A stretch of DNA of 64,000 nucleotides from Methylovulum miyakonense HT12. GTDB lineage: Bacteria; Pseudomonadota; Gammaproteobacteria; Methylococcales; Methylomonadaceae. The first letter of the stretch is position 1; every line of letters begins with the position of its first letter. The stretch covers positions 996,119-1,060,118 of the forward strand of contig NZ_KB913025.1 of the NCBI RefSeq assembly GCF_000384075.1. Reading direction: 5' to 3'. Shown piece by piece: positions 4,721 to 22,888 of this stretch. The translations under genes were made by a program, and so were the position numbers. The notes beneath the pieces were generated by a model. That model did not search any database. It had not been told where the DNA came from and saw nothing but the letters and a program-made list of their open reading frames with translations.

Positions 4721-4759
4721 TTCCCCCTCTCCCTGCTTCTGCTTGTGGACGAGGGGGAA
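4721..4759. other. Hairpin downstream of rpe
   Basis: A perfect 9-bp inverted repeat (TTCCCCCTC at 4721-4729 and GAGGGGGAA at 4751-4759, 21-nt loop) lies between rpe and the giant glycosyltransferase gene. No T-run follows, so it is a weak terminator candidate at best. It may also be the boundary of the AT-rich block that begins here. Confidence 0.4.
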
Positions 4760-4822
4760 ATAAATCACATCCCCCATTTTCATTTTGACAATTGTCCTTT
4801 AAAAATTAACGTTGGATAAGCG

Positions 4823-7800
4823 ATGAATAGCAATAGTACAGACCAAAGCGTTACTTCAATTAACGAAGCCCCTATGCAAAACCAAGTAGAAGACAAAGTA
4901 ATTATTGAGCAAGATGAAGTTAAACCGACCGACTTAGATGCCCTAAAAGAATTGATCAAAACCAACAAAGAAATAGAAGCACAAAAACTATTAGAATCGT
5001 TTTTATCTTCACCGGACGTTACAGTCGTCAGCCTTTTTCAGACGGGCGAGCTTTTTATGGAACACCAGGTGCAAGATTTAGCTGAGACAACGTATCGGGC
5101 AATCCTTGAAATTGAAAAAAACAACACTGCCGCTTTAGGCCGCTTGGGTGATCTGGCACAAGAAAAGGGGGACTATCAGGCCGCCATTGGCTTATTCCAA
5201 CAAATTATCGAAAACGAGGCCACACCGGAAAAGTGGGTTTACATTGGGCTCGAAAAGGCTGTAGAAAGCATAGGTGAACAACAAGTAGAAAATATAAAGG
5301 AATTGCTCAATAAGACCCAATTGGTTGAAGCAGAATCATTACTGCGGACATATTTGCTTTCCCAAGAAGTCAGTAGCGTTTCCCTGTTTCGGGCGGCCGA
5401 TTTGTTTAACGAACAGCAAATGTCGGATATAGCCGAAATGACATATCGGGCAATCCTTGACATTGATAAGTCCAATTGCGCCGCATTAGGCCGCCTAGGT
5501 GACCTCGCGCAAAGAAAGGGAAACCATCAAGCGGCAATTAGCTTATTCCATAAAATTATTGAAAATGAGGCCACACCGGACAGCTGGGTTTACATTGGGT
5601 TAGGCAACGCGCTAGAAAGTATTGGGGATTTACAAGAGGCGATAACTTATTTCAGAAAAGCCGTCGACATTATTGACAATAAAGAAGAATTGTTATCACG
5701 GATTGATAGCTTAAGCAAAAAACTCGATGGGCTACAAAGAGGTATCCCCATCCACGTTAAAACCCCCGAAATTGAACTTAGAAAAAACGATAACTTCCAA
5801 TCTGCGATTCCTAGCGGACTAAATGACAATACCCTGAGTTGGAAAATTGGTAAGCCAACAATAAAAGATCTGCAGTTAACTAGGGAGCTAGCACAGCAAA
5901 CACCGGAAAACCCTTTTATTTGGCAGTCTCTAGGAGATATTGCGCACAATCTCAGCCGCTGGAAAGAAGCCAGTGATGCCTACTATGAGCTTGCAAAATT
6001 ACAGAAACTCGATTGTGAAAGCCACTACCGCCTAGGGGAAGCCCTTGAACATCTTTATGAATACGAAAAAGCATATACTGCTTATTTGCAAGGGTTTACC
6101 GCCGATCCCGATGAGAAAATATTAAGCCATTTACTAAAAATCGGTAACGAACAGAATTTATTTGAAACATATTCCGAACTTGTATTATCGCTATTTGATG
6201 TCCTGCTAAAAGAACAGCCAGAACAACTATACCGACTGATTGACTTGATTGACCAGGATATGCTTGTTGAACTGTTTAAAAATACAACACAAAAAAGCTC
6301 ACTAATTTCAATACTGCCCCATTGGCTTGAAAACGCTGAGGCAGCTAAAGATTGGACAATCCCATTAGAGCTGCTTGGGACATTAGACAGATTAAAATTG
6401 CTGGATCCCTTACCTGATTGGATTGCTGTAGAATCTTTGTGGATAGCCGCACAGTTAAAGAAAATATTAGAAATCAGCTTGTTAGAGGATATAAAACTAA
6501 AAGTCAAGACTTTTAAAGATCAATTGAGCAAACTTAGAAAGTTAACTTTCTGGAGAAAGGCGGTTGATTTTGACAGGCAATTTCCCCTACTGAACGTCGC
6601 ACGTCTAAAATATAAGCAAAATTGGGGGAAAATTTCAGAGCCTTATACCCTGAGTGAGTTTTTTGCACATCCTGAAAGCCCTTACGTTTCCCCCCATGTT
6701 TTATTTGATACGATTGGATATATCAACGCGCAGAAATTAAGCCCAAAAGAAAAGCATCCTTTAGTGCATTTTTTCAGACACTCAAATGGTTATTCAAAAA
6801 AAGCCCCTGATCCATCGGCTTATTTTGATTGCCAGTGGTATCGAGAAGAGTACTTGGAAGACAACCAAATAGACAACCCCCTATTACATTATCTGTCCCA
6901 CTTCCATGAGCCAGGTATCCGGCCAAACAGATTTTTTGATAACCATTATGTCCGTGAAACCCAAGGCCTGCTTTGGGATGAAGACCCTTTAACCTATTAC
7001 TTGACGCAAATTGAAAACATAGGCGCAGATTTTTGTTTGAAAGGGTTTTCTCCCAATCCATTTTTTGATCGCAACTTCTACTTGAATCATAATCAAGACA
7101 TTTTGCGTGCCGTACAAAATAAATTGGACCCTTTCCTGCATTACATCAGACATGGTGTCAATGAAAAACGTCAAATCCATGCATGGCAACGTTACAATGA
7201 ATTTGTAAGGCATCAACAATTGCATTTAGAACCATTTAACTGGCATTCACGTTTGGGGATAAACGGTAGTTTGGCCCATATGAAAGGGGAAAAAGCAGAG
7301 GTAGCTTATTTTTTAGGACAACAAGTTTTGGCAAAACAATTGGCCTATCGCCCCCTAGTGAGTATATTAGTGCCCGTTTATCAAGTAAAACCTCTGTTTT
7401 TTGAAAAGATGATTGAGTCCGTCATTGCCCAGACATACGATAATTGGCAGTTATGTTTAGTGGATGATGCGTCAAAACGATATAAGCAAGAAATCCATCA
7501 GATGTTGAAACAATATGCCGCAAAAGATGAGCGTATTGCTTATAGTGTCCGCGAGAAAAATGGCCATATTTGCAACACAACTAACGATTGTCTAGCACTG
7601 GCGCAAGGTGAATATATTGCATTGCTTGATCACGATGACTTGCTAACGCCAGACGCCCTTTATGAAATGGTAGTGGCCATAAATCATAATTCTGATTTGG
7701 ATATCATTTATAGCGATGAAGATAAGGTTGATGAATGGGGCGTGTTTTCCATACCCTATTACAAGCCTGATTGGTCGCCGCATTCCTTATGGTCACGTAT

Positions 7801-8959
7801 GTACACATGTCATTTGACGGTTTACCGCAAATCGTTGATGGATAGTGTCGGGGGATTCAGGGTCGGTTTTGAAGGCTCCCAAGATTATGATTTAATGTTG
7901 CGGTGCAGTGAAAAAACTAAGCATATCCATCATATTCCCAAAGTGCTTTATCATTGGCGCAACCATGCGGAATCAACTGCAAGTGGGGAAGGCGCTAAAG
8001 ATTATTGCTCTGACGCCGGTTATATGGCCGTAACAGACACTTTGGCACGCCGAGGCCTAGAAGCGACTGTCGACTTTGTGGGCAAACAGAGAACTGCTTT
8101 TTGGGTTAAACCTTCGGTCATCGATTCACCTTTAGTCGATATAATTATCCCTAGCCGTAACGGTTCTGATTTCTTGCAAACGTGTTTGCAATCAATTTTT
8201 GAAAAATCAACGTATCAAAATTTTAAGGTCACCGTTATTGACAACAACTCTGACGAAAATAGCTTTTTCGTGTTAGTTGATCATTGGAAAAAACAAGAGC
8301 CATTACGTTTTCAAGTTTCACGTGATGAAAGCCCATTTAACTTTGCAGCCATCAATAACTTGGCTGTCCAAAAAACAGAGGGTGATTATTTGGTTTTTTT
8401 AAATAATGATACTGAAATCATCACCGAAGATTGGTTAGAGGGCCTGCTAGGTTACGCACAATTGCCAGAAGTGGGTGCCGTTGGAACAAAGCTTTATTAT
8501 TCAGATGATACGATACAACATGCGGGGGTTGTAACTGGAATTTCTGGAATTGCCGGACATGCAATGAAACATGCTAAACGCGACGCTCCTGGCTATTTTA
8601 GTAATTTGGAATTCGTCACCAATTATTCGGTAGTCACTGCGGCTTGTTTGATGATTAGCCGCGAAAAATTTAATGCTGCCGGAGGATTTGAAGAACATTT
8701 GCAAGTTGCTTTTAACGATGTCGATTTCTGCCTTAAAGTTCGGCGGCAAGGTCTGTACAATGTCTTTTTACCCTTTGTTGAACTGTATCACTACGAATCA
8801 AAATCAAGGGGTTATGAAGACACACCCAAGAAGCAAGAGCGTTTTGAAAAGGAAATTTTATTTATGAGGCAGCGGTGGGGCAAAAGCTTGGATAATGATC
8901 CATTTTATTCGCCATGGTTGACTATAGAAGACGAAACAATGGGCTATAGGTTTCATTAA
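4823..8959 (+). CDS. Giant TPR / tandem GT2 glycosyltransferase
   Basis: A 1378-residue protein. Residues about 40-290 are TPR-like helices containing two near-identical units of about 112 residues, offset by 117 residues. More TPR-like helices follow to about 450. Residues about 530-790 form a module rich in FDxxWY...NPLLHYL-type repeats, also found in the sulfotransferase gene at the far end of the locus. Two GT-A (GT2) domains complete the protein: about 843-1060 (donor motif DHDD) and about 1105-1378 (motif NNDTE). Two catalytic domains suggest alternating or sequential sugar addition. No signal peptide or membrane helix is evident, so it is probably cytoplasmic. Donor and acceptor are unknown. 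It is the first gene of the glycan block. Confidence 0.9.
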   Translation: MNSNSTDQSVTSINEAPMQNQVEDKVIIEQDEVKPTDLDALKELIKTNKEIEAQKLLESFLSSPDVTVVSLFQTGELFMEHQVQDLAETTYRAILEIEKNNTAALGRLGDLAQEKGDYQAAIGLFQQIIENEATPEKWVYIGLEKAVESIGEQQVENIKELLNKTQLVEAESLLRTYLLSQEVSSVSLFRAADLFNEQQMSDIAEMTYRAILDIDKSNCAALGRLGDLAQRKGNHQAAISLFHKIIENEATPDSWVYIGLGNALESIGDLQEAITYFRKAVDIIDNKEELLSRIDSLSKKLDGLQRGIPIHVKTPEIELRKNDNFQSAIPSGLNDNTLSWKIGKPTIKDLQLTRELAQQTPENPFIWQSLGDIAHNLSRWKEASDAYYELAKLQKLDCESHYRLGEALEHLYEYEKAYTAYLQGFTADPDEKILSHLLKIGNEQNLFETYSELVLSLFDVLLKEQPEQLYRLIDLIDQDMLVELFKNTTQKSSLISILPHWLENAEAAKDWTIPLELLGTLDRLKLLDPLPDWIAVESLWIAAQLKKILEISLLEDIKLKVKTFKDQLSKLRKLTFWRKAVDFDRQFPLLNVARLKYKQNWGKISEPYTLSEFFAHPESPYVSPHVLFDTIGYINAQKLSPKEKHPLVHFFRHSNGYSKKAPDPSAYFDCQWYREEYLEDNQIDNPLLHYLSHFHEPGIRPNRFFDNHYVRETQGLLWDEDPLTYYLTQIENIGADFCLKGFSPNPFFDRNFYLNHNQDILRAVQNKLDPFLHYIRHGVNEKRQIHAWQRYNEFVRHQQLHLEPFNWHSRLGINGSLAHMKGEKAEVAYFLGQQVLAKQLAYRPLVSILVPVYQVKPLFFEKMIESVIAQTYDNWQLCLVDDASKRYKQEIHQMLKQYAAKDERIAYSVREKNGHICNTTNDCLALAQGEYIALLDHDDLLTPDALYEMVVAINHNSDLDIIYSDEDKVDEWGVFSIPYYKPDWSPHSLWSRMYTCHLTVYRKSLMDSVGGFRVGFEGSQDYDLMLRCSEKTKHIHHIPKVLYHWRNHAESTASGEGAKDYCSDAGYMAVTDTLARRGLEATVDFVGKQRTAFWVKPSVIDSPLVDIIIPSRNGSDFLQTCLQSIFEKSTYQNFKVTVIDNNSDENSFFVLVDHWKKQEPLRFQVSRDESPFNFAAINNLAVQKTEGDYLVFLNNDTEIITEDWLEGLLGYAQLPEVGAVGTKLYYSDDTIQHAGVVTGISGIAGHAMKHAKRDAPGYFSNLEFVTNYSVVTAACLMISREKFNAAGGFEEHLQVAFNDVDFCLKVRRQGLYNVFLPFVELYHYESKSRGYEDTPKKQERFEKEILFMRQRWGKSLDNDPFYSPWLTIEDETMGYRFH

Positions 8960-8986
8960 ACTCAAGATCAGTGGTTATAAATTTTT

Positions 8987-10861
8987 ATGGGGAATCGATT
9001 AAGATTAGTTTCTAGGAACACAACCCCTTCGGGCATTGGGGAGCTGTTTGAAGGGGTACTTGATGCGCCTGCGCCAGGATTGGTTTTAGGGTCATCAATA
9101 TTATGTTTTTCTGGTTGGATTAATCCAAAAAATGAAAATAGGAGATATACGTTAAAAATAGTATCTGCTACTGGTATTGAGGTGATAGTAACGCCAAATG
9201 TGCCTAGACCAGACGTTGTTAACAGAAGAAAAGATGTTGCTCCATTAACAGGGGATTCCGATTTTTTTGGATTTAAAGCCGATTTTCCGTTATCCGATAC
9301 AATATCGGTCTATGTTCAAATTGATAATAAGGAAGTGCTTTGGCAAACTATTTCAACTGCTGAAATTGACTTTGATGTTTTTTCTGTGTTACGCCAATTT
9401 TTGAGTAAAGGTCAAGTTTCAAATAGTAAATTAAATAAATTAGAGTTGCTTGGCCCTGAGGTTATGAAAAAAGTAGTTGATATCGAGGCTACAAATACTA
9501 ACGTAATTAACCCCTCCAGAATACCCGCATCATTAGGGGCGACCGAAAAAGATTGGTTTAACAAATTTATAAAATATATTGACTCTGCGGATTTTTTATC
9601 GCGACTGTTATTAAGCCATTCAGCTGAATCAGGCATTGGAATCCCTTCGCCATTTTCATCGGATTTTGCAGTTTTAGTAAGTACGGTATTTATAGTCGAC
9701 GCGAACTTTTTGATATTTAGATACGGTAATACACATTTTTATATCGGCCAATACCTTCATACATTGGATTTTGTGTATTTCCCTGAAAAATCGTTACTTT
9801 TGCGTTTTAATAATTCACATTATGAACAAAGGCACTTAATCGCGCTCATTAGCCACGGCTTAAGAAATCCCAAAGCACTGCTAAAGAAATTGAAAAAATC
9901 TGCTAATACAATCTTGGGTGGACTGATATTGAATGGCATGAGCCCATATCATTTTTTCTATGATTGTATCCCGTCACTTTATGCCGCCAATAAATGTGAT
10001 GCCCTAAAAGGAGTAAACGCTTTCTTCTCCATTAAAGGGGAGTGTTATTATCCCGTAGAAAAATTATTTAATCTTGAAGCAACAAATAAAAAATATACCC
10101 ATATTGAGTTTATCAATTTACAAGCTGAAACAGACCAATTCTTTATTGTTGCCGGGGCATCATATAAACAGCAGGGCGCCCTCCAGGTAACCGAAATGGA
10201 CAGGCAAATTACCTGCCACGCCATAGCAAGCAGTCCTGATGAAATGACCTCTGTCACGAATAGCCTTGAAGGTTGCTATCCGATTTTATGGATTGGAATT
10301 AGTGCCCAAAAACGTTCTTGGATAAACCAAAATGAAGCTCTCATCAAGGCATTGCAATCTATATATGCCATGCACCCTAACATGGCAATCATATTTGATG
10401 GCATGACGAGTAATATTTTTAAAGCCAGTGCGGACGCACAAGATTTTTCCAAAGACCATGAGTTAGTGGAAGCAATTAAAGCAATGCTACCGCCCAAAAT
10501 AACGGCTGTAAGCACTGTAGGCCTAAATAGCCAAGAAAAATTAATATTAGCCAATGCAGCAGATTTTTATATCGCCAATTATTCAACTGGCTCAATGTAT
10601 CCAGCCCGATTTACCCATTTGCCGGGAGTGGCGCATTTAAGTAAAGCGATGATGGCCATTGTTCGCGATATTCATATACATTACAAAACATTTACCGTTC
10701 CTGACGAATTGATTACCGATATTCCTGACCCAGATAATAACAGGCTCGATTTCATTAGTTATTCTATTGATGAAGACGCTTTTTCAAAATATGTTTGTAG
10801 TGTGTTTGAGTCAACTATTGAAGACAAAACCAAGCCAATCGCCACCGAAGGAAATCTGTAA
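8987..10861 (+). CDS. GT61-like (DUF563-type) glycosyltransferase candidate, 624 residues
   Basis: Residues about 30-130 look like a beta-sandwich of the sort that precedes transferases in surface-glycan loci. The C-terminal half (about 300-600) resembles the GT61/DUF563 fold: an HFFYDCIPSL segment near 323, an RSW motif with following helices near 440, and a late NAADFYIANYSTGS segment. The same C-terminal pattern, including RSWI and the IDG/FDG strand, appears in the 656-residue protein at 16290-18212, so the two are probably distant paralogues. Base composition is distinctly AT-rich. No ribosome site is obvious before the ATG. The transferase assignment is inference; no substrate can be named. 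Confidence 0.6.
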   Translation: MGNRLRLVSRNTTPSGIGELFEGVLDAPAPGLVLGSSILCFSGWINPKNENRRYTLKIVSATGIEVIVTPNVPRPDVVNRRKDVAPLTGDSDFFGFKADFPLSDTISVYVQIDNKEVLWQTISTAEIDFDVFSVLRQFLSKGQVSNSKLNKLELLGPEVMKKVVDIEATNTNVINPSRIPASLGATEKDWFNKFIKYIDSADFLSRLLLSHSAESGIGIPSPFSSDFAVLVSTVFIVDANFLIFRYGNTHFYIGQYLHTLDFVYFPEKSLLLRFNNSHYEQRHLIALISHGLRNPKALLKKLKKSANTILGGLILNGMSPYHFFYDCIPSLYAANKCDALKGVNAFFSIKGECYYPVEKLFNLEATNKKYTHIEFINLQAETDQFFIVAGASYKQQGALQVTEMDRQITCHAIASSPDEMTSVTNSLEGCYPILWIGISAQKRSWINQNEALIKALQSIYAMHPNMAIIFDGMTSNIFKASADAQDFSKDHELVEAIKAMLPPKITAVSTVGLNSQEKLILANAADFYIANYSTGSMYPARFTHLPGVAHLSKAMMAIVRDIHIHYKTFTVPDELITDIPDPDNNRLDFISYSIDEDAFSKYVCSVFESTIEDKTKPIATEGNL

Positions 10862-10862
10862 C

Positions 10863-11930
10863 ATGACTAACCCATATGAGAATTTACCAAGTTCAGCTTT
10901 CTGGAAACTGGCCGTTGCCCAGAAAAGCATGTTTGACATAGAGGGGATATGGAACCCTAAATTTAGGATAGAGCCAGACCAGAAAGTAGTGACATTTGGC
11001 TCTTGCTTCGCGCAACACATTGGCAGGGCCTTAAATGACCGCGGGTTCTCTTGGATAAGTACAGAGAATGCACCTGCTGCACTTTCCAAGGCTAATGCCA
11101 CACGGTTTAATTATGATGTTTTTTCATCCAGAACCGGCAATATCTACACTACATCTTTGCTACATCAGTGGACCCAATGGGCCTTGGGTAAGACAGGTTG
11201 CCCTGAAGAAGTATGGGAGCAAGACGGTAGGTTTTATGACCCTTTTAGGCCTGTTATTGAGCCCAACGGTTTCTCGTCAGCAGAGGAAATGAAGTTATCA
11301 CGGGATGTTGCAATCGGGGCATTTAAGAAATGTATAGAAACGGCCGATTATTTTGTGTTCACATTGGGTTTAACCGAAAGCTGGAAAAACAAAGCCGGAT
11401 ATGAATATCCTATGTGTCCAGGAACGGCAGCCGGGGCTTTTAATGCGGCGGAGCATATCTACGAAAATCAAGATTATATTTCTATAATCAATGGCCTGCA
11501 TGCTTCAATTAAGCTTATGCTTGAGCTTAATAATAATATAAAGTTTATATTGACGGTATCGCCTGTACCTTTGACCGCGACCTGTTCGGGAAACCATGTC
11601 GTAGTGGCGACAATGGAATCTAAATCCATTTTACGTGCTGTCGCTGGTCAGGCTGCAAAATCTTTGGATAATGTGGATTATTTTCCATCCTATGAATTGA
11701 TAAACAGCCCTACATCTAAAGGTATATTTTTTGAGCCTAATCAAAGAAGTGTAAACCACTATGGGGTAGACTTCGTCATGGATCAGTTTTTTACTTGTTT
11801 GGCCCAAAAATATGGTGGACTTCCGACAAAAAGTCTAAGCCCCAATATAGCAGAGATAAACGAAAAGAAATCAGACGCTGATGTTGTATGTGAAGAAGAG
11901 CTTCTCAATGCATTTGGTGGAGGCAAATAA
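10863..11930 (+). CDS. GSCFA-domain protein
   Basis: A 355-residue protein carrying the family-defining GSCFA motif in VVTFGSCFAQHIGRAL near residue 40. GSCFA proteins are regarded as relatives of the SGNH/GDSL hydrolases and often accompany polysaccharide loci, which suggests acyl-ester hydrolysis or transfer on a glycan. The exact reaction is not established. I chose the ATG at 10863, two bases after the preceding stop, because it precedes the conserved region directly; a longer frame starting at 10767 would overlap the upstream gene by 95 bp. The next gene, an SGNH-like protein, begins immediately after the stop, so the two are probably co-translated. Confidence 0.8.
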   Translation: MTNPYENLPSSAFWKLAVAQKSMFDIEGIWNPKFRIEPDQKVVTFGSCFAQHIGRALNDRGFSWISTENAPAALSKANATRFNYDVFSSRTGNIYTTSLLHQWTQWALGKTGCPEEVWEQDGRFYDPFRPVIEPNGFSSAEEMKLSRDVAIGAFKKCIETADYFVFTLGLTESWKNKAGYEYPMCPGTAAGAFNAAEHIYENQDYISIINGLHASIKLMLELNNNIKFILTVSPVPLTATCSGNHVVVATMESKSILRAVAGQAAKSLDNVDYFPSYELINSPTSKGIFFEPNQRSVNHYGVDFVMDQFFTCLAQKYGGLPTKSLSPNIAEINEKKSDADVVCEEELLNAFGGGK

Positions 11931-12629: not shown

Positions 12630-12755
12630 TCCCTATCAAAAATTGCCCAACAAAGCTTCCGTGCTTGGGTTCTGTTGGTAAATAACATATGGGAGTTGAC
12701 ACGATGCATCCGTTTTCACTAAGCCTTCCGTAGGCAAATCAACATAAATACACAT

Positions 12756-14372
12756 ATGAAACTGGATTTTAAATTAATAAACATTGATTGCACCTTACGT
12801 GATGGCGGTTATTACAATCAGTGGGATTTTTCGCAAGAGTTAATCCATGCTTATCTTGATGCCATGGAAGCGGCAGGCGTAGATTTTGTTGAATTAGGTT
12901 TCCGTTCGTTTGATAAAAATGGTTTTCGTGGTGCATGCGCATACACCACAGACGATTTTATTAACAGCTTAACTATCCCGCCTAACATAAAAATTGGCGT
13001 GATGATGAACGCATCCGAATTGATTAACCATCCTGATGGCCCTTTAGCGGCCATCAAATTACAGTTTGTTCCAGCAAAAGAATCCCCTGTCACGTTGATC
13101 CGGTTTGCGTGCCATGTCCACGAATTCGAAGCCACATTGCCGATGTGCGCTTGGTTGAAGCAACAAGGCTACCTAGTGGGAATCAATTTAATGCAAGTGG
13201 CTGACCGCAGTGAAACGGAGATAGAACATATTGGTAAAGTTGCAAGCCATTATGACCTTGACGCGCTCTATTTCGCCGACAGCATGGGCAGCTTGGAACC
13301 CCATCAGGCTGCGGCAATTGTTAAAATACTCAAGCGGCATTGGCAGGGAGCCATGGGGATACACACCCATGACAATATGGGGCGGGCGATGGCCAACACC
13401 TTGAGCGCCATTAACGAAGGCGTGACGTGGGTTGATTCCACAGTCACAGGCATGGGGCGAGGGCCGGGTAATGTGCAAACGGAATATGTCCTGATTGAAT
13501 TGGCCAACCTACGAGCAAAACATATTAATTTGTCGCCCTTACTTGAATTGATCCGCAAGCATTTCAAGCCTATGCAAGACCACTATGGATGGGGGGCAAA
13601 CCCATACTATTACTTGGCTGGCAAATACGGCATCCATCCCACTTATATCCAGAAAATGCTCAGCGATTCGCGTTTTGGCGAAGCTGAAATCTTATCGGTG
13701 ATTGACCATCTCAAGGCCGTCGGCGGAAAAAAGTTTAGCACTGAAATCATGGAAGCGGGCCGCCAAGTTTATGGCGGTGAACAAACAGGCTCTTGGGCCC
13801 CAGAAAAGATTATCAATGGCCGGGAAGTATTGATTGTCGCGGCAGGGCCTAGTGTTGGCAATCATCGTCGCGCCATAGAGCAATACATCGTTAAAGCCAG
13901 TCCCTTTGTCATCGGTCTGAACACCCAAAAAACGATTGATGAAAATCTAATTGATGTGCGTGCAGCCTGCCATCCATTCAGGCTACTGGCCGACTGTGAC
14001 CAGTACCCCAATTTAAAACAACCCTTAGTGGTGCCTAGCTCCAGATTGCCAGAGGTGATCAAAGCTTCAATGGAAGGGGTCAACCAATTTGATTTTGGCC
14101 TTTCCGTAGAACCCGCAAGATTTGAATTTCATGATACTTACGCCATTGCCCCAACCTCGTTGGTGGTTGCCTATGCCTTGGCCATAGCAACTAGCGGCAA
14201 AGCCGCGCGAGTCCTGATGGCTGGCTTTGACGGTTTTAGTGCGGATGACCCCAGAACAACCGAAATGGAAGAACTGCTTGCCAACTATCAAAGCGCTAAG
14301 GGTGCCTCGCCTATTTTGGCAGTCACCCCCACCCGCTATAAAATCCCATCAACCTCCATTTATGCTTTATAG
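12756..14372 (+). CDS. HMGL/DmpG-type aldolase fused to a C-terminal GPS-motif domain
   Basis: A 538-residue protein. Residues 1 to about 300 form a pyruvate-type aldolase TIM barrel: DCTLRDGGYYN near 9-19 gives the metal-binding Asp and the Arg-Asp pair, and GIHTHDNMG near 204 gives the His-x-His ligands. Residues about 350-538 form a separate domain with VAAGPSVG near 358 and an MAGFDG strand near 488, reminiscent of DUF115/MptE-like or GT42-like folds. The next genes are a KdsB-like cytidylyltransferase and a HAD phosphatase. The aldolase may therefore make a 2-keto-3-deoxy sugar acid in place of KdsA or NeuB. That role is inference; the fold of the first half is firm. Confidence 0.78.
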   Translation: MKLDFKLINIDCTLRDGGYYNQWDFSQELIHAYLDAMEAAGVDFVELGFRSFDKNGFRGACAYTTDDFINSLTIPPNIKIGVMMNASELINHPDGPLAAIKLQFVPAKESPVTLIRFACHVHEFEATLPMCAWLKQQGYLVGINLMQVADRSETEIEHIGKVASHYDLDALYFADSMGSLEPHQAAAIVKILKRHWQGAMGIHTHDNMGRAMANTLSAINEGVTWVDSTVTGMGRGPGNVQTEYVLIELANLRAKHINLSPLLELIRKHFKPMQDHYGWGANPYYYLAGKYGIHPTYIQKMLSDSRFGEAEILSVIDHLKAVGGKKFSTEIMEAGRQVYGGEQTGSWAPEKIINGREVLIVAAGPSVGNHRRAIEQYIVKASPFVIGLNTQKTIDENLIDVRAACHPFRLLADCDQYPNLKQPLVVPSSRLPEVIKASMEGVNQFDFGLSVEPARFEFHDTYAIAPTSLVVAYALAIATSGKAARVLMAGFDGFSADDPRTTEMEELLANYQSAKGASPILAVTPTRYKIPSTSIYAL

Positions 14373-14380
14373 GGCATCAC

Positions 14381-15112
14381 ATGAAATATGCCATCATCAT
14401 CCCAGCCCGGCACCAGTCCAATAGATTGCCTGGCAAGCCGCTCGTAAATTTATGCGGCATACCCATGATCGTACGGACCTACAGACAGTGTTTGAAAGCG
14501 GTGCCTGCCGAGGCTGTTTTTGTCGCAACCGACGATGACACCATCAAATCAGTTTGCGAACAATATGGCATTAATGTCTTGATGACATCCTCGACTTGCT
14601 TAACCGGAACAGACAGGGTCGCTGAAACCGTAAAATTAGTGGAAGCGGACACTTATATCAATGTCCAAGGCGATGAACCTGTATTTAACCCGGACGATAT
14701 AAAATCACTCATAGCTGAAGCCGGCAAAAATCCGGACTCAGTGATTAATGGTTATTGCCGGATTAAAGATGAAGCACAATTTAGGAGCCCCAACACACCC
14801 AAAGTCGTACTAAGGCCGGATGGGCGCTTGCTTTACATGTCACGAGCCCCCATCCCCACGAATAAAGCCCATGGTTTTGATATCGCCCATAGGCAAGTGT
14901 GTGCCTATGCTTTCCCCAAGGCGGCCTTGCTTGCTTTTACCGCGCAGCATAAAAAAACCCCATTGGAACAGATCGAAGACATTGAGATCTTACGATTTCT
15001 CGAACTCGGTTGGGATGTGAAAATGATATTGATGTCAGAAAACTCTGTTTCGGTTGATCATCCTGAAGATGTCATTAAAGCTGAAGCAGTGATTAAAAGC
15101 TTAGGTTTGTGA
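14381..15112 (+). CDS. KdsB-like 3-deoxy-manno-octulosonate cytidylyltransferase
   Basis: A 243-residue cytidylyltransferase that should activate a 2-keto-3-deoxy sugar acid as its CMP derivative. The nucleotide-binding start IIPARHQSNRLPGKPL, the central NVQGDEP motif near 104-110 and the late VDHPED motif match KdsB in order and spacing, and the length is close to the usual 245-250. It lies 8 bp after the aldolase gene and overlaps the HAD phosphatase. This context suggests a dedicated copy for this glycan, so a substrate other than Kdo is possible. I leave the symbol blank because a housekeeping kdsB may exist elsewhere. Confidence 0.88.
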   Translation: MKYAIIIPARHQSNRLPGKPLVNLCGIPMIVRTYRQCLKAVPAEAVFVATDDDTIKSVCEQYGINVLMTSSTCLTGTDRVAETVKLVEADTYINVQGDEPVFNPDDIKSLIAEAGKNPDSVINGYCRIKDEAQFRSPNTPKVVLRPDGRLLYMSRAPIPTNKAHGFDIAHRQVCAYAFPKAALLAFTAQHKKTPLEQIEDIEILRFLELGWDVKMILMSENSVSVDHPEDVIKAEAVIKSLGL

Positions 15113-15768
15113 TGGCGATCAAAAATATCAAAGCATATAAGACTATTGTTTTTGATTGCGATGGCGTCATCCTTGATTCCAACCGCATCAAAACCGACGC
15201 TTTTTACGAAACAACCCTCCCGTATGGAAAAGATGCCGCTGATGTTTTTGTAGAATATCATCGCCAGCATGGTGGAATTTCCAGATACCGGAAATTTGAA
15301 TATTTTTTTAGTGACATCCTGCGACGAGACCCTAGCGAAGGGGAAACGGATAATCTGCTTGCGGAATATGCAAGGCTTGTCAGAGACGGTTTATTGTCCT
15401 GTCCGGTGACCGAAGGCTTAACAGAACTACGTGCGGCAACACCTGATGCCCGCTGGCTGGTCGTCTCAGGCGGCGACCAGGGTGAATTGCGGCAGGTGTT
15501 TATGGAAAGGAATCTTAGCCAGCTTTTTGACGGCGGAATCTATGGCGCACCAGATAATAAGGATGAAATACTCGCCCGTGAACTTAGCGGTGGAAACATC
15601 CAGAGCCCAGCGGTTTTTGTTGGCGATAGCCGCTATGATTATGAGTCATCAACAAGGGCGGGGCTGGATTTTCTTTTTATTAGCCAATGGACTGAAGTCC
15701 AAGATTGGAAAGGATATTTTTATAACTTGGATGTCACAATTCTAAAAAATATTCTCTACCTGTCATAA
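15109..15768 (+). CDS. HAD-family phosphatase
   Basis: A 219-residue haloacid-dehalogenase phosphatase. Motif I is FDCDGVI near residue 15, motif II the VVSGG strand near 120, motif III the conserved Lys in DNKDE, and motif IV VGDSRYDYE near 180. The insert between motifs I and II is helical, as in phosphoglycolate-phosphatase-like members. Start is GTG at 15109 or ATG at 15112, both overlapping the end of the cytidylyltransferase gene. In the inferred pathway it would remove the phosphate from the aldol product before CMP activation, as KdsC or NeuB-pathway phosphatases do. It is not convincingly gph, although gph often sits near rpe and trpE. Confidence 0.85.
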   Translation: MMAIKNIKAYKTIVFDCDGVILDSNRIKTDAFYETTLPYGKDAADVFVEYHRQHGGISRYRKFEYFFSDILRRDPSEGETDNLLAEYARLVRDGLLSCPVTEGLTELRAATPDARWLVVSGGDQGELRQVFMERNLSQLFDGGIYGAPDNKDEILARELSGGNIQSPAVFVGDSRYDYESSTRAGLDFLFISQWTEVQDWKGYFYNLDVTILKNILYLS

Positions 15769-15794
15769 ATGGCATTCATAAAAAACCCAAACTT

Positions 15795-15887
15795 AACAAC
15801 CACCTACTGAAAGTAGGTGGGTTAGCGCGGGACACAGAGGACTAAAGTCCACCCACATTGTGTCCCGCGCTGTCGAGTTGTTTTTTT
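15795..15887 (+). terminator. Branched structured element ending in a T-run
   Basis: Three nested or adjacent hairpins: a 9-bp stem with GAA loop at 15800-15820, a long 13-bp stem (AGCGCGGGACACA at 15824-15836 with its complement at 15859-15871), and inside that a GGACT/AGTCC hairpin at 15839-15850. An outer AACAAC/GTTGTT pair closes the whole before seven T residues. It could terminate the aldolase operon. The compound fold is more than a simple terminator, and a transposon-end or small-RNA origin is possible. Confidence 0.5.
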
Positions 15888-15900
15888 GAACCTTGATGCT

Positions 15901-15930
15901 AAAGCTAACCGGCTAAAGCCGGTGGTTTTA
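15901..15930 (+). repeat. REP / IS200-IS605-end-like palindrome
   Basis: The hairpin ACCGGCTAAAGCCGGT (15908-15923) followed by GGTTTTA resembles the imperfect palindromes at IS200/IS605-family ends and REP elements. No transposase or TnpB frame is recognisable nearby, so this would be a remnant or a non-autonomous element. Confidence 0.45.
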
Positions 15931-16289
15931 ACCTTAAATATTGAAATAAATGATAACCCCCAAGCTAAAAAGCCACTAGAAACCAGTCGTTTTTCATATT
16001 ACGGACTAACAAGCAAAATGTCTCGATTAGGGGCCTGCCTAAAAAGATCCCGCCGAGGTTCCAGAGCGCCTGCTGCAAGCCTCGCATTGATAACCAGGAC
16101 AAGTGGTTGTGGCTGCCATGCCACTCCGGATCCTGTCGCCATGTGCACAAATGAATTCGTCGGCACAATGTAACTGCCGGATACAGGCGAACGGGACTCT
16201 TCGCTTACTTATTGCTTGACAGTTATGATTGATGTTTCCATTTGTCCATTTTATCAAAAGACCTCAAAACACATATAGAGAACAAAAAT
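15931..16289. other. Intergenic region, no recognised gene
   Basis: About 360 bp between the structured element and the next glycan gene. Short open frames on both strands (for example plus 15886-16173 and minus 15965-16168) overlap each other and lack ribosome sites or recognisable domains. The stretch at 16030-16200 is less AT-rich than its neighbours and could be a decayed fragment of something, but I cannot identify it. Confidence 0.4.
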
Positions 16290-18212
16290 ATGTTAGATGC
16301 CGTCCAACCCGATTTATTCATAAAATCCGGTCTATATCCTACTTACCCATTACAGGACACTGGTTCCGGTTATTTTTTTATAAAACACGATACAGGTTTG
16401 CCTTGTTATTTACAAAACAAGGGGAATAATGTCGCGCCCAATAATGGATGGGAAGCAAAATCAGTTCTAAAGCTAGGTGATGGCACATTGTATATTGTCT
16501 TATGGACGCATATAAATGGCAGTGATGATCTTTGGTTTTTAAATGATCAATTGACATTTTTCGCTAACGGAAATTTACTTAATGATAGCAAATACAACGA
16601 TACACCATACGCTAAGTTATGGTCACTATATCTTAGCGATGTGTTATATAGGGTCTGGTATTCTTTAATTACGCCAAATTTGCTTCAAAACAATCCTGAT
16701 TTTTCGCCATCTGAACTATTCATTTCTAATAATGTTATTCAAAATATAAATCTAATCGTCAATCCGTTTACCTTTCCCTGTCAGTTTATAGATCTTTCAG
16801 CGGCAAACGACCAAACCGATTTATTTAATGACGTTTATCCATCAATTACAAAAAATTATTTGATGGATGCGCTATCATCTTTTTCTTCCTATACTGAAAA
16901 TTGGCAAGACGAAGCCATAATAAACGGCCATGTTGAAATAAAATGCCCGTTTACGGGTAAATTAATTCAAAGTAATGACTCACTTCTTCTATCAACCTCC
17001 ACTGTTATGTACAGATTTCAGGCTGAAAATGAAATCTTTTTTTTAATATGCCATTCTCATTTTAATGTTAAGTATGCTATTTTTTTTCCAAAACAGCATG
17101 TAATTTTTTTTCGGGGGGTAAAACAGGGAATTTATATAAACCAAAAAATTATAGACGCAGGTTTGTTAAAAGTTTTAAAGGATTGGCATTTAATAAAACC
17201 TTATCTCATAAGCGAGTCGGAAAAAACGCCAGTAAGCTTTTGTGAATACAGCCATGTAGGCCACAATCTATGGAACGAATTATCTGCCATAGAAAGGATG
17301 GACAAGCGTCATGCTTTAGATAAACTGGATAAATTTTACATATTTCAAAATAGTGAAATTTATGCTCCTATCGATATTTTATTCCCCGCATTAAAAGGAA
17401 AAAATTATAAAATAGGCTCCAATATGTTAGCCCATCACATTTATAAAGACCTCCATTTATTGGTTAAACCAGGCGATCAATATATAAGTAAAAGCCTTAC
17501 TAAAAAAATTATTGATTATTCAAAACTTGGATATGAAGAATATTCCGATGAATTTAGTTGTTTTTCAAAAAAGCATTTTAGTATTGTCATATTGTTCACA
17601 TTGAGATTCGATAATAGAAGTTGGATAGACCAAGAAAGTGGCATTTGTAAAGTTATCACCAAATTATCCGAAAACCATCATGGCAACATTGCGCTAGTAA
17701 TTGACGGACATAATGTTAATAGCTCAGGTAGCAAAATGAAAAGCCATTCAGAATCTTTGATTAAATCAAGCAAAGGTGTTGACTTATTTGATACTGAATA
17801 TGAAACCGCAGAACGCATTAAAGAAGCACTCACTTCAAATGCCATAACCGTATTCAATACGATAGGTTGTAGTGTCAGAGAAAGTATTAGCTGGTGTTTG
17901 CAAAGTGATTTTTTCGTAGCCCCATGGGGAGCTGGGCTGGCAAAATGCAAATGGGTAGCTAACATGCCAGGGATAGTGTTTTCTAATAGAAAAATGTTAG
18001 CGCATACGGCTGGAGACTTACATATTTATGATGACCCCAAATACCTTGAAGGCGCGATGCCTTGCGAATATATTGACCTAACAGAAATAGAGGATATAGA
18101 CGAGGTTAGCATTATACATGGGCCGCGAGCGAACTTTAACGTATCAATTGATGCGTTATATAAAAAAACCAGTGAAATGACCGAACGGTATGGGCGATTA
18201 AATGGGTTGTAA
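16290..18212 (+). CDS. GT61-like glycosyltransferase candidate, about 640 residues
   Basis: Very AT-rich gene. I prefer the ATG at 16290; a TTG at 16242 would add 16 residues. The N-terminal half has no recognised domain. The C-terminal half (about 330-620) contains GHNLWNELSAIER, an RSWID motif near 446, an LVIDGHN strand near 483 and an SDFFVAPWGAGLAKCKW segment near 545. The last of these is the typical GT61/DUF563 pattern, in which a small-residue loop (here PWGAGL) lies in the nucleotide-sugar site. It shares the RSW/IDG pattern with the 624-residue protein upstream. It probably transfers a sugar to the glycan; donor unknown. Confidence 0.6.
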   Translation: MLDAVQPDLFIKSGLYPTYPLQDTGSGYFFIKHDTGLPCYLQNKGNNVAPNNGWEAKSVLKLGDGTLYIVLWTHINGSDDLWFLNDQLTFFANGNLLNDSKYNDTPYAKLWSLYLSDVLYRVWYSLITPNLLQNNPDFSPSELFISNNVIQNINLIVNPFTFPCQFIDLSAANDQTDLFNDVYPSITKNYLMDALSSFSSYTENWQDEAIINGHVEIKCPFTGKLIQSNDSLLLSTSTVMYRFQAENEIFFLICHSHFNVKYAIFFPKQHVIFFRGVKQGIYINQKIIDAGLLKVLKDWHLIKPYLISESEKTPVSFCEYSHVGHNLWNELSAIERMDKRHALDKLDKFYIFQNSEIYAPIDILFPALKGKNYKIGSNMLAHHIYKDLHLLVKPGDQYISKSLTKKIIDYSKLGYEEYSDEFSCFSKKHFSIVILFTLRFDNRSWIDQESGICKVITKLSENHHGNIALVIDGHNVNSSGSKMKSHSESLIKSSKGVDLFDTEYETAERIKEALTSNAITVFNTIGCSVRESISWCLQSDFFVAPWGAGLAKCKWVANMPGIVFSNRKMLAHTAGDLHIYDDPKYLEGAMPCEYIDLTEIEDIDEVSIIHGPRANFNVSIDALYKKTSEMTERYGRLNGL

Positions 18213-18242
18213 GATTATTCTTCAGATAACAGGGAAAGCATA

Positions 18243-19349
18243 ATGTCATATTCTATAGCTATTATCGGTGCAGGTTGGTACGGCTGTCATCTCGCGTCAT
18301 CACTTGATGCGTTGGGTATGGAGACCAAAGTATTTGAAATGAATGCCAGACCATTACATGAGGCGTCTGGTAATAATCAGTTTCGATTACACTTAGGGTT
18401 TCACTATGCCCGCCATTACAACACCCGAATGCAATCGCGTGACGGTTATATGCGCTTTATGGAACGTTATCCATCACTGAGCGGACAAGTCGTTAATAAC
18501 ATTTATGCCGTCCCTGAGCAGGATTCATTGATGGATTTTCTGACCTATCGGTTAATCATGACGGCTTCGGGGATTGATTTTTCCGAAGCGATTGACATTG
18601 ATTTTAAGATAAACAATATCGAAGGTTATCTTGTCACTGAAGAACGGGTGTTACATACGGAAAGTGCGCGGGTTTATTTTAAGCAACGATTAGGCGATCG
18701 GTTAATCTTCAACCAAAAGATAGAGTCCATTGAAGAAAAGGCGGATAAGGTTTACGTCAATGGTGAATGCTTTGATTACGTCATTGACGCGACCTGGGGG
18801 CATTTCAGAAAGCCGCCCATGGAAGTGTTTTATGAGCCAACTATTTTGTTGTATTACGAATCAAAAGACACTAGGGAAATTTTCCCCGCGCTGACTTTTG
18901 TTGACGGCCCTTTGTGTTCAATCTATCCGACTGAAGAAGCTTCCCTTTACACCCTTTCCAGTGTGCCGCACACGCCAATAGGTCGATTTTCTTCTTCCTC
19001 AGAAGCAAGGGCGGTAAGAAATCAACTGAACCAAGAATTCGTAACTTCGAAAGTCAAACAAATGGAGGCACAAATTGCCCATTATGTGCCTGATTTTAAT
19101 GAACGCTTTAGGTTTGTTGCGCCACAATTTTCCATTAAGACCAAACCTATCGCCAGTTACGATGACCGCTCATGCCATGTGTTTAAGCAAGGCCGGGTTT
19201 TTTCGGTAATGTCTGGAAAAATTGATACCGTATTTTTTGCAACGGAACGTATCTTATCGATGCTTGAATCTTTAGAAAATTTACAATTTGCTAAAGTACC
19301 TAGTATGTTAAGACAAGAAATTGGTTCTGCTGAATATTTTCAAGGGTAA
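18243..19349 (+). CDS. FAD-dependent oxidoreductase (DAO-like)
   Basis: A 368-residue flavoprotein. The N-terminal Rossmann dinucleotide motif is IIGAGWYGCHLAS (about 7-19), followed by an acidic strand end (VFEMNA near 31) as expected for FAD binding. Mid-protein VDYVIDATWG-like and C-terminal VMSGKIDTVF segments fit the D-amino-acid-oxidase/glycine-oxidase fold. A ribosome site (AGGGAAAGC) precedes the ATG. It starts a tight run with an SDR and a TIM-barrel isomerase (spacing 4 bp, then a 4-bp overlap). The context suggests oxidation of a sugar or sugar-acid intermediate of the glycan pathway; the substrate is not deducible. Confidence 0.75.
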   Translation: MSYSIAIIGAGWYGCHLASSLDALGMETKVFEMNARPLHEASGNNQFRLHLGFHYARHYNTRMQSRDGYMRFMERYPSLSGQVVNNIYAVPEQDSLMDFLTYRLIMTASGIDFSEAIDIDFKINNIEGYLVTEERVLHTESARVYFKQRLGDRLIFNQKIESIEEKADKVYVNGECFDYVIDATWGHFRKPPMEVFYEPTILLYYESKDTREIFPALTFVDGPLCSIYPTEEASLYTLSSVPHTPIGRFSSSSEARAVRNQLNQEFVTSKVKQMEAQIAHYVPDFNERFRFVAPQFSIKTKPIASYDDRSCHVFKQGRVFSVMSGKIDTVFFATERILSMLESLENLQFAKVPSMLRQEIGSAEYFQG

Positions 19350-19353
19350 TATA

Positions 19354-20139
19354 ATGACTAATGATTATAAAAGTGCACTTATCGGACACACCGGATTTGT
19401 CGGCTCTAATCTTGCGCAGGCCATGCCGTTCAATGAGCACTACAATTCCAAAAATATTGAAAATATTGCTGGAAAAACTTTTGATAAAGTTGTTTGCGCC
19501 GGGGTGAGTGCCGTCAAATGGTGGGCTAACCAGAACCCGGAACAAGATAAAGCGCAAATAGACCGCTTGCTAGGCTACCTTGAAAGGGTCAAAACTGATG
19601 TGTTTGTACTAATTTCCACGATAGATGTTTATCGTGAAATCAATGGCGTCAACGAAGACACCGATCCCAATCCTGATGGTTTGCATGTTTATGGACGCCA
19701 TCGCTTATATGTAGAAGAATTTGTTAAACAACATTTTCCAAAATATCACATTATCCGGTTACCTGCGCTATTTGGCTCGGGACTTAAGAAAAATGTCATT
19801 TATGATTTCATGAATGCCAATGGGCTTGACGTTATTAATCCAAAATCGTCTTTTCAGTGGTATCCATTGCGACGTTTGCCTGATGACATGGCTATTATTG
19901 AAAAAGCCGATGTCCCTTTGATAAACCTGGCCGCCGAACCGATAGCAACAGGAACGATTAAAGATAATTATTTCCCCTCGATTGAAATCGGCGGCAACCC
20001 GGCTCCGGAAATGCATTACGATATGCATACAAAATACGGGCATTTATTTGGCCGCAACTCACCTTATGTGGTTGGGCATGATGAAATCCTATTTGAGTTA
20101 TTTCGTTTTATTGAAAGCGCAAGGAGTCATGGCGAATGA
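19354..20139 (+). CDS. NAD-dependent epimerase/dehydratase-like SDR
   Basis: A 261-residue extended-SDR-like protein. The cofactor loop is GHTGFVGSN (about 9-17), matching GxxGxxG. The active-site region reads LISTIDVY...HVYGRHRLYVEEF: the Tyr is present, but Arg replaces the usual Lys of YxxxK. The start at 19354 follows the previous stop by 4 bp; the longer frame from 19321 would overlap the FAD gene. Its stop overlaps the TIM-barrel gene (ATGA). It may oxidise or epimerise a nucleotide-sugar or sugar acid, or be a catalytically altered member. The short C-terminal domain leaves the substrate open. Confidence 0.75.
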   Translation: MTNDYKSALIGHTGFVGSNLAQAMPFNEHYNSKNIENIAGKTFDKVVCAGVSAVKWWANQNPEQDKAQIDRLLGYLERVKTDVFVLISTIDVYREINGVNEDTDPNPDGLHVYGRHRLYVEEFVKQHFPKYHIIRLPALFGSGLKKNVIYDFMNANGLDVINPKSSFQWYPLRRLPDDMAIIEKADVPLINLAAEPIATGTIKDNYFPSIEIGGNPAPEMHYDMHTKYGHLFGRNSPYVVGHDEILFELFRFIESARSHGE

Positions 20140-20942
20140 AACTGGCAATATCTAATCTTGCCTGGGGGCAAGCAGAACAGGATGAAATATTTTCAATGTT
20201 GCCTGCCTTAGGTGTTTCGGGTGTGGAGGTTGCTCCGACCAAAATTGGTAGCTGGGATTCAATAACCCAACCCATGCTTGCCGATTTCCGAAAAAAACTT
20301 AATGGCATCGGTTTGTCTGTTAGCTCATTGCAAGCCATTTTCTTTGGCAACCCAGCTGCGCAATTATTAGGTAATGCCAGCGGCTTTGACATCATGTGCG
20401 CACATGTTGACAAACTTGCTGATATCGCCGCCGAGTTGGGTGCCGAAGTGGCGGTGTTTGGAGCCCCCAAAAATCGTCAGCGGGGTGAAATAGAAATGGA
20501 GGTTGCCTTGCAAATGGCCGCTGAGCGGTTCGCAAAATTAGGGGACATTTGCCAGGGGCGGATGAAAATAGGCATTGAGCCAGTCCCTCCCTTTTATGGT
20601 TCGGATTTCATTCTAACCGCCCGTGAGGATTTGGAACTCGTCAAGGCCATTAACCATCCCGCTATCGGTTTGCATTTAGATACCGGTTGTGTATTTCTTG
20701 GTGGAGACGCCATTGATGATGCAATCCGTGAGGGTGCCGTACATTTGATACATTTTCATATTGCAGAGCCTGAATTGGCAGATTTTTCATCACCCAAAGC
20801 AGCCCATACTTCTGCGGCAAGCGCTTTAAATAATGTTGGTTATGATCGTTGGTTATCCATAGAAATGAAGGAAAGCTCTGATCCCATTAAATCCGTAACT
20901 GAAGCAATCCGGTTTGTTCGCAATACATACAACGACCAGTAG
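20136..20942 (+). CDS. Sugar phosphate isomerase/epimerase (AP endonuclease 2-like TIM barrel)
   Basis: A 268-residue xylose-isomerase-like TIM-barrel protein. Expected metal ligands are visible: the Glu in GIEPVP near 150, the Asp in LHLDTG near 184, the His pair in LIHFHIAE near 208, and the late Glu in LSIEMK near 246. Such proteins isomerise or epimerise sugars or hydroxy-acids. It overlaps the SDR gene by 4 bp, so it probably acts on the same intermediate. Which sugar is not visible. Confidence 0.8.
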   Translation: MKLAISNLAWGQAEQDEIFSMLPALGVSGVEVAPTKIGSWDSITQPMLADFRKKLNGIGLSVSSLQAIFFGNPAAQLLGNASGFDIMCAHVDKLADIAAELGAEVAVFGAPKNRQRGEIEMEVALQMAAERFAKLGDICQGRMKIGIEPVPPFYGSDFILTAREDLELVKAINHPAIGLHLDTGCVFLGGDAIDDAIREGAVHLIHFHIAEPELADFSSPKAAHTSAASALNNVGYDRWLSIEMKESSDPIKSVTEAIRFVRNTYNDQ

Positions 20943-20956
20943 AAATATGTCTGTAT

Positions 20957-22888
20957 ATGGAACGAGATAACAGTAAAGAACGGTTAATAATGGTAGAGTT
21001 GACGGCAATTTTTGATACTGCGGAAATGATTGAAAATTGGTCTGAGCCATTAGAAAAATTAGAATTAATGGCAATATCAGGGGATATTAATCCTCTGCCG
21101 GATTGGCTGGCAGTAGAAATTATCTGGATGAAAGTTCAGTTTGAACAACAGTTGTGCCATTCCGAACTGCCCGCACAACAAAAGGATGCCATTGAAGAAT
21201 CCTTTGCCGCCTTGAAAAAACTGGCCTGTTGGCAGTTGGTTGTTGATTTCGACCAGCACTTTCCTTTATTGGACTGTCAGTATTTGCACGAACAGGGCAT
21301 TAAAATTGAGATAAGTAGCTTAAGTCAATTTTTGGCGCATCCTAATAGCAAAAAAATATCCCCACACCGTCTATTTAATGCTACCCGTTATAAAAATATC
21401 GAAAAGCTTGATCTGCATCCGCACCATCCCTTAGTGCATTTTTTCAGGCATTCCAACGGTTACCGTGACAAATCACCGACCCCAAACTATTTATTTGATT
21501 GTGATTGGTATCGGAAAAATTATCTCCAAGACCAGCCCTTCAAAAATCCGCTACTACATTATCTGGCACATTTTCATGAGGAAAATATCCAGCCTATTGA
21601 ACATTTTAGCAATGAGCATGTGCGTCAATCCCAAAGCCTACCCGCAGATATAGATCCGTTAGCTTATTATCTTACACAATTACAACGCCAAGGCGTTGAG
21701 TTCCGGCGCCATGGTTTTTCACCGTGCCCCTATTTCGATAGGGCATTTTATTTGGCAAATTACCAGGATATAAAAATTGCCAACGAGACGGACGGCCTCG
21801 ACCCATTTCATCATTTTTCCGTTACAGGAAATAAAGAGGGCAGAAAAGGCCATCCTTGGTTGTGCCAAAATATGGCATCCCCGTCCATGGTCGAACAATT
21901 TTCGGCTAACAGAAAGCTGGCGGTATTAATTTTAGGTATGCACCGTAGCGGGACTTCGGCGGTAACCCGGATGACAAATCTATTGGGTTTAGACGTGACA
22001 ACTGACTTGATGCCCCCTACACCCGCTAATCCGACAGGTTATTGGGAATCTGTCGAGTTAAGGGAATTACATGATGAAATACTTTCTGCATTGGGTTCTA
22101 GCTGGGATGATATATTGCCAATCAATGCCGATATTTTTCAAACGCCTGAAATTGACCGTTATAAATTCCTTTTAACCGATTATATTGTTAGAACTTTTAG
22201 CGGCTCACAGCGGTTTGTCATCAAAGACCCGCGAATGTGCAATCTAATGCCTTTATGGCTTGGAGTATTGGAAGGCTTAAATGTGGAGCTAAGGGTCATC
22301 ATGCCTTATAGGCACCCTCTTGAAGTTGCAAAATCCTTACAAAATAGGGAAGGGTTTACGCTAGAAAAATCATTTTTATTATGGTTACGGCACATCTTAA
22401 ATGCCGAGCGGCATACCCGCGGGATCAAACGGTGCTTTGTCAGTTATTCCCAAGCATTAACAAACCCTGAAAAAGTGATCCAAACCATCACCGGGCAATG
22501 CGAAATAGACGCACCTAATATTCAAGAAAGTGAAAAACAAGTTAAAGGGTTTCTTGACGGGCAACATTATCATCAGCGGATAACTGACACGGACTTAAGC
22601 GAAGCGGATTTCCCAGGTTGGGTATCGCAGGTTTTTGAGATTCTGGATAAATGGTCCGCGCATAAAGATGACGGGCAACAACTCCAAGGGCAATTTAATC
22701 GTATTTCGGATGAAATGGCACGGGCAGACAGCCTGTACGGCAGCATAATTAGGGACAAAAATAACGACTTAAAGCAAGTGTCATTTATGCAACAGCAGAC
22801 TGAAAAGCAGGGAAGGCAACTGACCGCACAGATCAATAAATTGTTTGAGCAAGAAGAGATTCAGCAAATTATCAGAAAAACGGCTTAA
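20957..22888 (+). CDS. Repeat-module sulfotransferase
   Basis: Up to 643 residues; an ATG at 20990 (removing 11 residues) is equally possible and neither start has a strong ribosome site. Residues about 48-300 are homologous to residues 530-790 of the giant glycosyltransferase at the start of the locus (LPDWxAVE, HPLVHFFRHSNGY, NPLLHYL and PYFDR/PFFDR blocks are shared). Residues about 319-540 form a sulfotransferase fold: the PAPS 5-prime-phosphosulfate loop GMHRSGTS, and the 3-prime-phosphate site RHPLEVAKSL. A short coiled-coil-like tail follows. It probably sulfates the glycan, or is guided to it by the shared module. It is the last gene of the block. Confidence 0.82.
   Translation: MERDNSKERLIMVELTAIFDTAEMIENWSEPLEKLELMAISGDINPLPDWLAVEIIWMKVQFEQQLCHSELPAQQKDAIEESFAALKKLACWQLVVDFDQHFPLLDCQYLHEQGIKIEISSLSQFLAHPNSKKISPHRLFNATRYKNIEKLDLHPHHPLVHFFRHSNGYRDKSPTPNYLFDCDWYRKNYLQDQPFKNPLLHYLAHFHEENIQPIEHFSNEHVRQSQSLPADIDPLAYYLTQLQRQGVEFRRHGFSPCPYFDRAFYLANYQDIKIANETDGLDPFHHFSVTGNKEGRKGHPWLCQNMASPSMVEQFSANRKLAVLILGMHRSGTSAVTRMTNLLGLDVTTDLMPPTPANPTGYWESVELRELHDEILSALGSSWDDILPINADIFQTPEIDRYKFLLTDYIVRTFSGSQRFVIKDPRMCNLMPLWLGVLEGLNVELRVIMPYRHPLEVAKSLQNREGFTLEKSFLLWLRHILNAERHTRGIKRCFVSYSQALTNPEKVIQTITGQCEIDAPNIQESEKQVKGFLDGQHYHQRITDTDLSEADFPGWVSQVFEILDKWSAHKDDGQQLQGQFNRISDEMARADSLYGSIIRDKNNDLKQVSFMQQQTEKQGRQLTAQINKLFEQEEIQQIIRKTA

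Follow-up and report, generated by a model that had tools for sequence, protein, structure and literature searches.

We analysed a 64,000-nucleotide stretch of the Methylovulum miyakonense HT12 genome (the window), which corresponds to bases 996119-1060118 of a genome that is a single contig of 4.69 Mb. Our subject is a trio of genes in a row at 12756-15768 of the window, which encode an aldolase fusion protein, a cytidylyltransferase using cytidine triphosphate (CTP), and a HAD phosphatase. An 8-bp gap separates the first two genes, and the second and third overlap by 4 bp. The block holding the trio, which lies between genes named rpe and trpE in the initial annotation, has a GC content of 41.4%, against 50.2% on either side, in agreement with the AT-richness described there. 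A check of the open reading frames (ORFs) of the window also reproduced the order and spacing given for the trio and for a second run of genes, discussed below. The trio is composed as follows:

12756..14372, + strand: aldolase fusion, 538 aa, HMGL/DmpG-type (PF00682, E 4.8e-27)
Fusion residues ~1-340: N-terminal part, HMGL/DmpG-like TIM barrel with a helical part
Fusion residues ~345-538: C-terminal part, Maf/GT42/MptE-like domain
14381..15112, + strand: KdsB-type CTP:sugar-acid cytidylyltransferase, 243 aa (PF02348, E 5.2e-45; NF009905)
15109..15768, + strand: HAD phosphatase, 219 aa, GTG start (PF00702, E 2.7e-9), with the motifs DCDG, VVSGG, DNKD and VGDSRYD

The initial annotation had proposed that the three genes act together, and a neighbourhood search supported this: the refuting condition named there, a triad found nowhere else, did not hold. 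We compared 20 loci carrying the fusion: the window, L025-L031 (named contigs), L032 and L033 (Leisingera plasmids; a third Leisingera plasmid match lies outside the set), L035-L038, L063/L092, L064/L080, L065-L067 and L089, the last of which starts within the end of the fusion. L030 ends about 50 bp past the fusion and was left out of the counts, leaving 19 judged loci. The counts rest on tblastn, which recovered genes that the ORF caller had missed, namely the PseF-like gene of L026 and the HAD genes of L032 and L033. A cytidylyltransferase gene was the first or second gene downstream of the fusion in all 19 judged loci, of the KdsB type in 8 and PseF-like in 12, with both in L025. The label PseF-like rests on a scan of six proteins, from these loci or those of the second fusion family described below, for which PseF ranked first among the NCBIfam models (41-76 bits, cut-off 205.7); the rest were assigned by BLAST likeness. 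The HAD gene was present within the same stretch in 16/19 loci; it was not found in the ~20 kb read for L036 and L037, and in genome G605 it sits on a different contig from the fusion. Thiomicrospira, Marinobacter, Paraglaciecola and Leisingera are among the hosts; for Sulfurimonas and the planctomycete, the evidence is short contigs from metagenome-assembled genomes. The three genes form a genuine module that occurs in the surface-sugar clusters of bacteria only distantly related to one another.

A profile of the fusion matched 12 of the 369 genomes in a draw from the class at E <= 1e-40, 7 of them at full length. The HAD protein matched 10 of the 369 at E <= 1e-25, namely the 7 genomes with a full-length fusion and three others, G629, G569 and G162. 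The G629 contig holds just the final residues of a fusion at its start, and behind them come a KdsB gene (66% identical) and a HAD gene; the G569 and G162 matches were weak and lay near other cytidylyltransferase genes. The HAD-fusion association gave a Fisher p of 6.9e-13 (7/7 versus 3/362, with the source genome included and G629 counted as fusion-less), and in this draw the HAD subfamily is tied to the fusion. For five unfused HMGL relatives from the same draw (L068-L072), none of the neighbouring genes matched the references for the trio's cytidylyltransferase, for the HAD or for HpcH at E <= 1e-4. In a draw of 398 genomes from the phylum, the fusion was detected at E <= 1e-60 in 2, one being the source genome, and the module is therefore rare there. 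Among the matches listed for the open-licence literature, titles and the starts of abstracts do not name the module.

A second fusion is encoded in the same genome at 4568604 (L039:9575-12077) and is followed by a PseF-like gene. It is 31% identical to the window fusion over the aldolase part and 27% over the whole. We read six loci of the nine matches to this second family, all in the window's genus; the PseF-like gene was present in 5/6 and the HAD gene (38-39% identity) in 3/6, and L073, of this family, ends at the HAD gene. The coupling of the trio holds across two deeply split fusion families, less often for HAD.

In a tree of the fusions, the KdsB-linked and PseF-linked rows were mixed, the planctomycete and Leisingera KdsB rows, for example, standing among PseF rows; the tree has long branches and weakly supported forks, and was used solely for this mixing of labels. 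The aldolase fusion is constant, whereas the cytidylyltransferase beside it can be exchanged between KdsB and PseF-like; most simply, enzymes of the two types act on the same acid or on similar ones. In five loci an additional aldolase, of the HpcH/HpaI type, lies between the fusion and the PseF-like gene:

L025:11420-12151, HpcH-type aldolase
L026:9635-10363, HpcH-type aldolase
L035:7880-8605, HpcH-type aldolase
L036:8615-9337, HpcH-type aldolase
L065:7396-8121, HpcH-type aldolase

The L025 enzyme, the one scanned, was nearest to HpaI, GarL and 2-keto-3-deoxy-L-rhamnonate aldolase, all below cut-off. The HpcH-type aldolase may be there for a second acid, or it may take on part of the fusion's work.

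The window cytidylyltransferase scored above the cut-offs of two KdsB subfamily models (NF009905, 286 bits, cut-off 255; NF003952, 240 bits, cut-off 193) and below those of two KdsB equivalogs (TIGR00466, 149.5 bits, cut-off 155.2; NF003948, 156.5 bits, cut-off 281). Its best PDB relative is 1gq9 (E 8.6e-39), a synthetase that joins cytidine monophosphate (CMP) to 3-deoxy-D-manno-octulosonic acid (Kdo). PMC2901514 names Q96, D98 and D225 of K-CKS as metal ligands, and PMC3149649 names P8, R10, R15 and K19 of the Aquifex enzyme as CTP contacts and assigns Kdo binding to the C-terminal part of KdsB. These metal ligands and CTP contacts were invariant in 11 aligned sequences; Aquifex T14 is Asn in the window enzyme, and Aquifex L70, P71, R76 and G94 lay outside the comparison.

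Within the C-terminal part, the eight distinct trio KdsBs all carry [KR]QVC and IEI[LI]R, whereas 13/15 other KdsBs carry [RKL]H[ILV]G and LEQLR; two depart from this, L091 (KQVC with VDMMR) and L096 (divergent). The 15 comprise 12 draw matches, the second KdsB of the source genome, the second KdsB of L028, which lies 6 kb from the trio of that locus, and the KdsB of L091. The 12 came from 210 genomes at E <= 1e-35, a draw that leaves more distant KdsBs outside the comparison, and gave no fusion match within the 3.1-3.7 kb retrieved; for one of them, L100, the genome's own trio uses a PseF-like gene. Counted on an alignment with 1vh1, the changed positions are E. coli H181 and Q211, which we take to touch Kdo. 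They are Q and I in 8/8 trio KdsBs, and H and Q in 13/15 of the others, including the second KdsB of the source genome. Because all eight trio KdsBs are changed at two positions of the sugar-binding part, the acid activated by the trio is probably not Kdo.

The L091 cluster (2632-6710) contains the KdsB-like gene with KQVC, an HpcH-like aldolase gene, two genes that look by eye like dehydrogenases and a HAD relative, with no fusion. It is perhaps a parallel aldolase-based route.

The aldolase domain scored 93.2 bits against the DmpG model TIGR03217, below the cut-off of 286. Fusion residues R15, D16, H203 and H205 align to R17, D18, H200 and H202 of DmpG and were invariant in 8 fusions; D18, H200 and H202 form the divalent metal site of DmpG. 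The position of DmpG His21, which we take to be catalytic, is occupied by Tyr (Tyr19) in 8/8 aligned fusions. The closest solved relative of the N-terminal domain is 3dxi, the putative aldolase BVU_2661 of Bacteroides vulgatus. The two have the CTLRDGGYY signature in common, but the solved piece is the N-terminal domain alone and is itself titled putative. DmpG and BphI resemble the window fusion in fold and metal site, and differ from it in the score under cut-off, the His21 change and the sugar locus in which the fusion is set; no acylating aldehyde dehydrogenase was detected among the scanned window neighbours. A degradative HOA pathway was rejected on the score, the His-to-Tyr change and the setting.

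The C-terminal domain was modelled alone because the whole-model list covered residues 1-339. Its predicted fold resembles the Maf flagellin glycosyltransferases and the GT42 sialyltransferases (CstI, CstII), with Maf and CstII as the transferases matched by the model. Unlike these enzymes it is fused to an aldolase, and it has no sequence match over cut-off: against the MptE-like family PF01973 it scored 16.9 bits (cut-off 34.6), and 4/8 members matched at E <= 1. No counterpart of the catalytic His of GT42 was identified in this domain. Judged by the predicted fold, the domain is perhaps a transferase acting on a CMP-sugar. That it instead serves for binding or oligomerisation without catalysis, or is a pyrophosphokinase-like enzyme, falls only a little short of an even chance, and would be compatible with the pathway proposed below. 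In two other loci we observed further transferase-related proteins. Directly upstream of the L028 fusion, one protein (L028:2379-5108) combines Capsule_synth and GT29 sialyltransferase-family domains, and just 3' of the HAD gene in L089 lies a gene (L089:1692-2456) for a 254-aa protein with a CPGPSA motif, possibly a stand-alone transferase, which had no Pfam match at E <= 0.01.

Among the synthases dependent on phosphoenolpyruvate (PEP), KdsA was found once in the genome, at 4612279, outside the window, and another KdsB is also encoded elsewhere; no NeuB was found in the genome by a search that matched in 9/14 control genomes. The window thus contains no such synthase, as the initial annotation had stated. 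The neighbours of the fusions include the Capsule_synth and GT29 protein of L028, a GDPD protein with a sub-threshold GT29 match in L065, Wzy_C in L026, group-1 glycosyltransferases in L038 and L063, a pyruvyl transferase in L025 and Gmd in L028 and L038, and on the Leisingera plasmids glycosyltransferases, Glf and Gmd lie near the fusion. Ten of 30 scanned neighbours had no Pfam match at E <= 0.01. By their family assignments, these neighbourhoods are surface-polysaccharide settings.

Other genes of the block provide local context:

4823..8959, + strand: tetratricopeptide repeat (TPR) protein with GT2 glycosyltransferase domains (PF00535, E 4.3e-41, two stretches); local glycan context
8987..10861, + strand: 624-aa protein of no named family; context, outside the core
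18243-19349: flavin adenine dinucleotide (FAD) oxidoreductase
Ends at 20139: short-chain dehydrogenase/reductase (SDR)
20136-20942: xylose-isomerase-like TIM barrel, 4-bp overlap with the SDR gene (AP_endonuc_2, E 4.2e-23)

The last three had been proposed as part of the route. In the stretches read from the other 19 fusion loci they had no match at E <= 1e-10, and the FAD gene matched 1/369 genomes at E <= 1e-30, the source genome itself, so that we rejected their membership of the module. The plasmid matches were at most 25.8% identical (9 records), and L067 gave one 67-residue TIM-like match (4e-5). The sulfated glycan also proposed rests on a weak Sulfotransfer_3 match, 20.5 bits under a cut-off of 27, and was not supported. 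The large GT2 protein and the sulfotransferase-like protein have an internal region in common, 45% identical (6293-7186 and 20957-22888). The 624-aa protein had no Pfam or NCBIfam match at E <= 0.1; relatives occur near fusions in L031, L035, L036, L037 and L039, and those scanned had nothing over cut-off. A 656-aa protein was assigned no family by the Pfam scan.

We consider it reasonably probable that the product of the trio is a 2-keto-3-deoxy sugar acid in CMP-activated form, destined for a surface polysaccharide and probably different from Kdo. We infer the following order of steps. The metal-dependent aldolase domain would add the enolate of pyruvate to an aldose, most likely phosphorylated and drawn from central metabolism; the HAD enzyme would then take off the phosphate, and the KdsB-type enzyme (PseF-like elsewhere) would join the acid to CMP. 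A transferase would use the CMP-sugar, perhaps the Maf/GT42-like C-terminal domain of the fusion itself. We saw no constant gene of the module that would produce a special aldose, and this points to an acceptor that is a common metabolite. Because the trio recurs in surface-polysaccharide settings and no PEP-dependent synthase lies in the window, an aldolase in the place of the synthase, as first proposed, is the best reading. The Kdo pathway (KdsA, KdsC, KdsB) forms a keto acid, dephosphorylates it and activates it with CMP. The trio has the same three-step logic and an activating enzyme of the KdsB family, but an HMGL-type aldolase stands where KdsA would, and the pocket positions of its KdsB are changed. 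We take the window HAD not to be of the KdsC type. The nonulosonic acid pathways (NeuB/NeuA, PseI/PseF, LegI/LegF) resemble the module in the PseF-like enzymes of 12/19 loci and in the Maf-like C-terminal fold, and differ in that no NeuB-type synthase was found in the genome and no amino-sugar precursor gene was constant among the genes compared.

We weighed this pathway against other explanations. A chance neighbourhood in a cassette-rich polysaccharide locus would fit the AT-rich block and the FAD, SDR and TIM genes, which lack matches in other fusion loci, but is hardly credible and was rejected because the trio recurs, with a cytidylyltransferase in every judged locus and the HAD gene in 16 of 19. 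The trio might also provide an extra supply of ordinary Kdo, from pyruvate and arabinose 5-phosphate, for a capsule, in the way that Kdo genes are duplicated in capsule clusters. The KdsB-type enzyme, with its CMP-Kdo synthetase relative, and a phosphatase following it, as Kdo 8-phosphate would need, are consistent with this idea, but a genome that already has KdsA and another KdsB, the PseF-like enzymes that take the place of KdsB in other loci and the altered sugar-binding positions make plain duplication quite improbable.

Alternatively, the HMGL domain may form a different bond, with a donor other than pyruvate, and prepare an acid or aldehyde, the CMP-activated acid coming from the HpcH-type aldolase or from elsewhere in metabolism. 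The tyrosine at the position of the catalytic His of DmpG weighs against the pyruvate chemistry proposed above and favours this explanation, as do the HpcH aldolases between fusion and cytidylyltransferase in five loci and genome G162, in which KdsB-like and HpcH-like genes occur together with a HAD relative and the fusion had no match at E <= 1e-40. However, 14/19 loci have no HpcH match in the stretch read, and there the fusion stands with a cytidylyltransferase and mostly with HAD. We regard this explanation as unlikely.

To our knowledge, the biosynthesis of CMP-activated sugar acids (Kdo, sialic, pseudaminic and legionaminic acids) is assumed to begin with a PEP-dependent synthase, and such synthases are what genome mining looks for. 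If the aldolase module does the same job, synthase mining misses the glycans concerned and a class of surface sugars is uncharted, and its PEP-free chemistry could be put to use in enzymatic synthesis. In view of the changed KdsB positions, a kdsB annotation in such loci need not mean Kdo. We put forward only tentatively, as a possibility on the unlikely side, that one polypeptide carries out the first and last steps of the pathway, its HMGL-type aldolase making a new 2-keto-3-deoxy acid without PEP and its Maf/GT42-like transferase using the CMP form, with an activating enzyme that can be exchanged between the KdsB and PseF-like lineages. If so, CMP-activated sugar acids would have a third root in this module, in addition to those in KdsA and NeuB.

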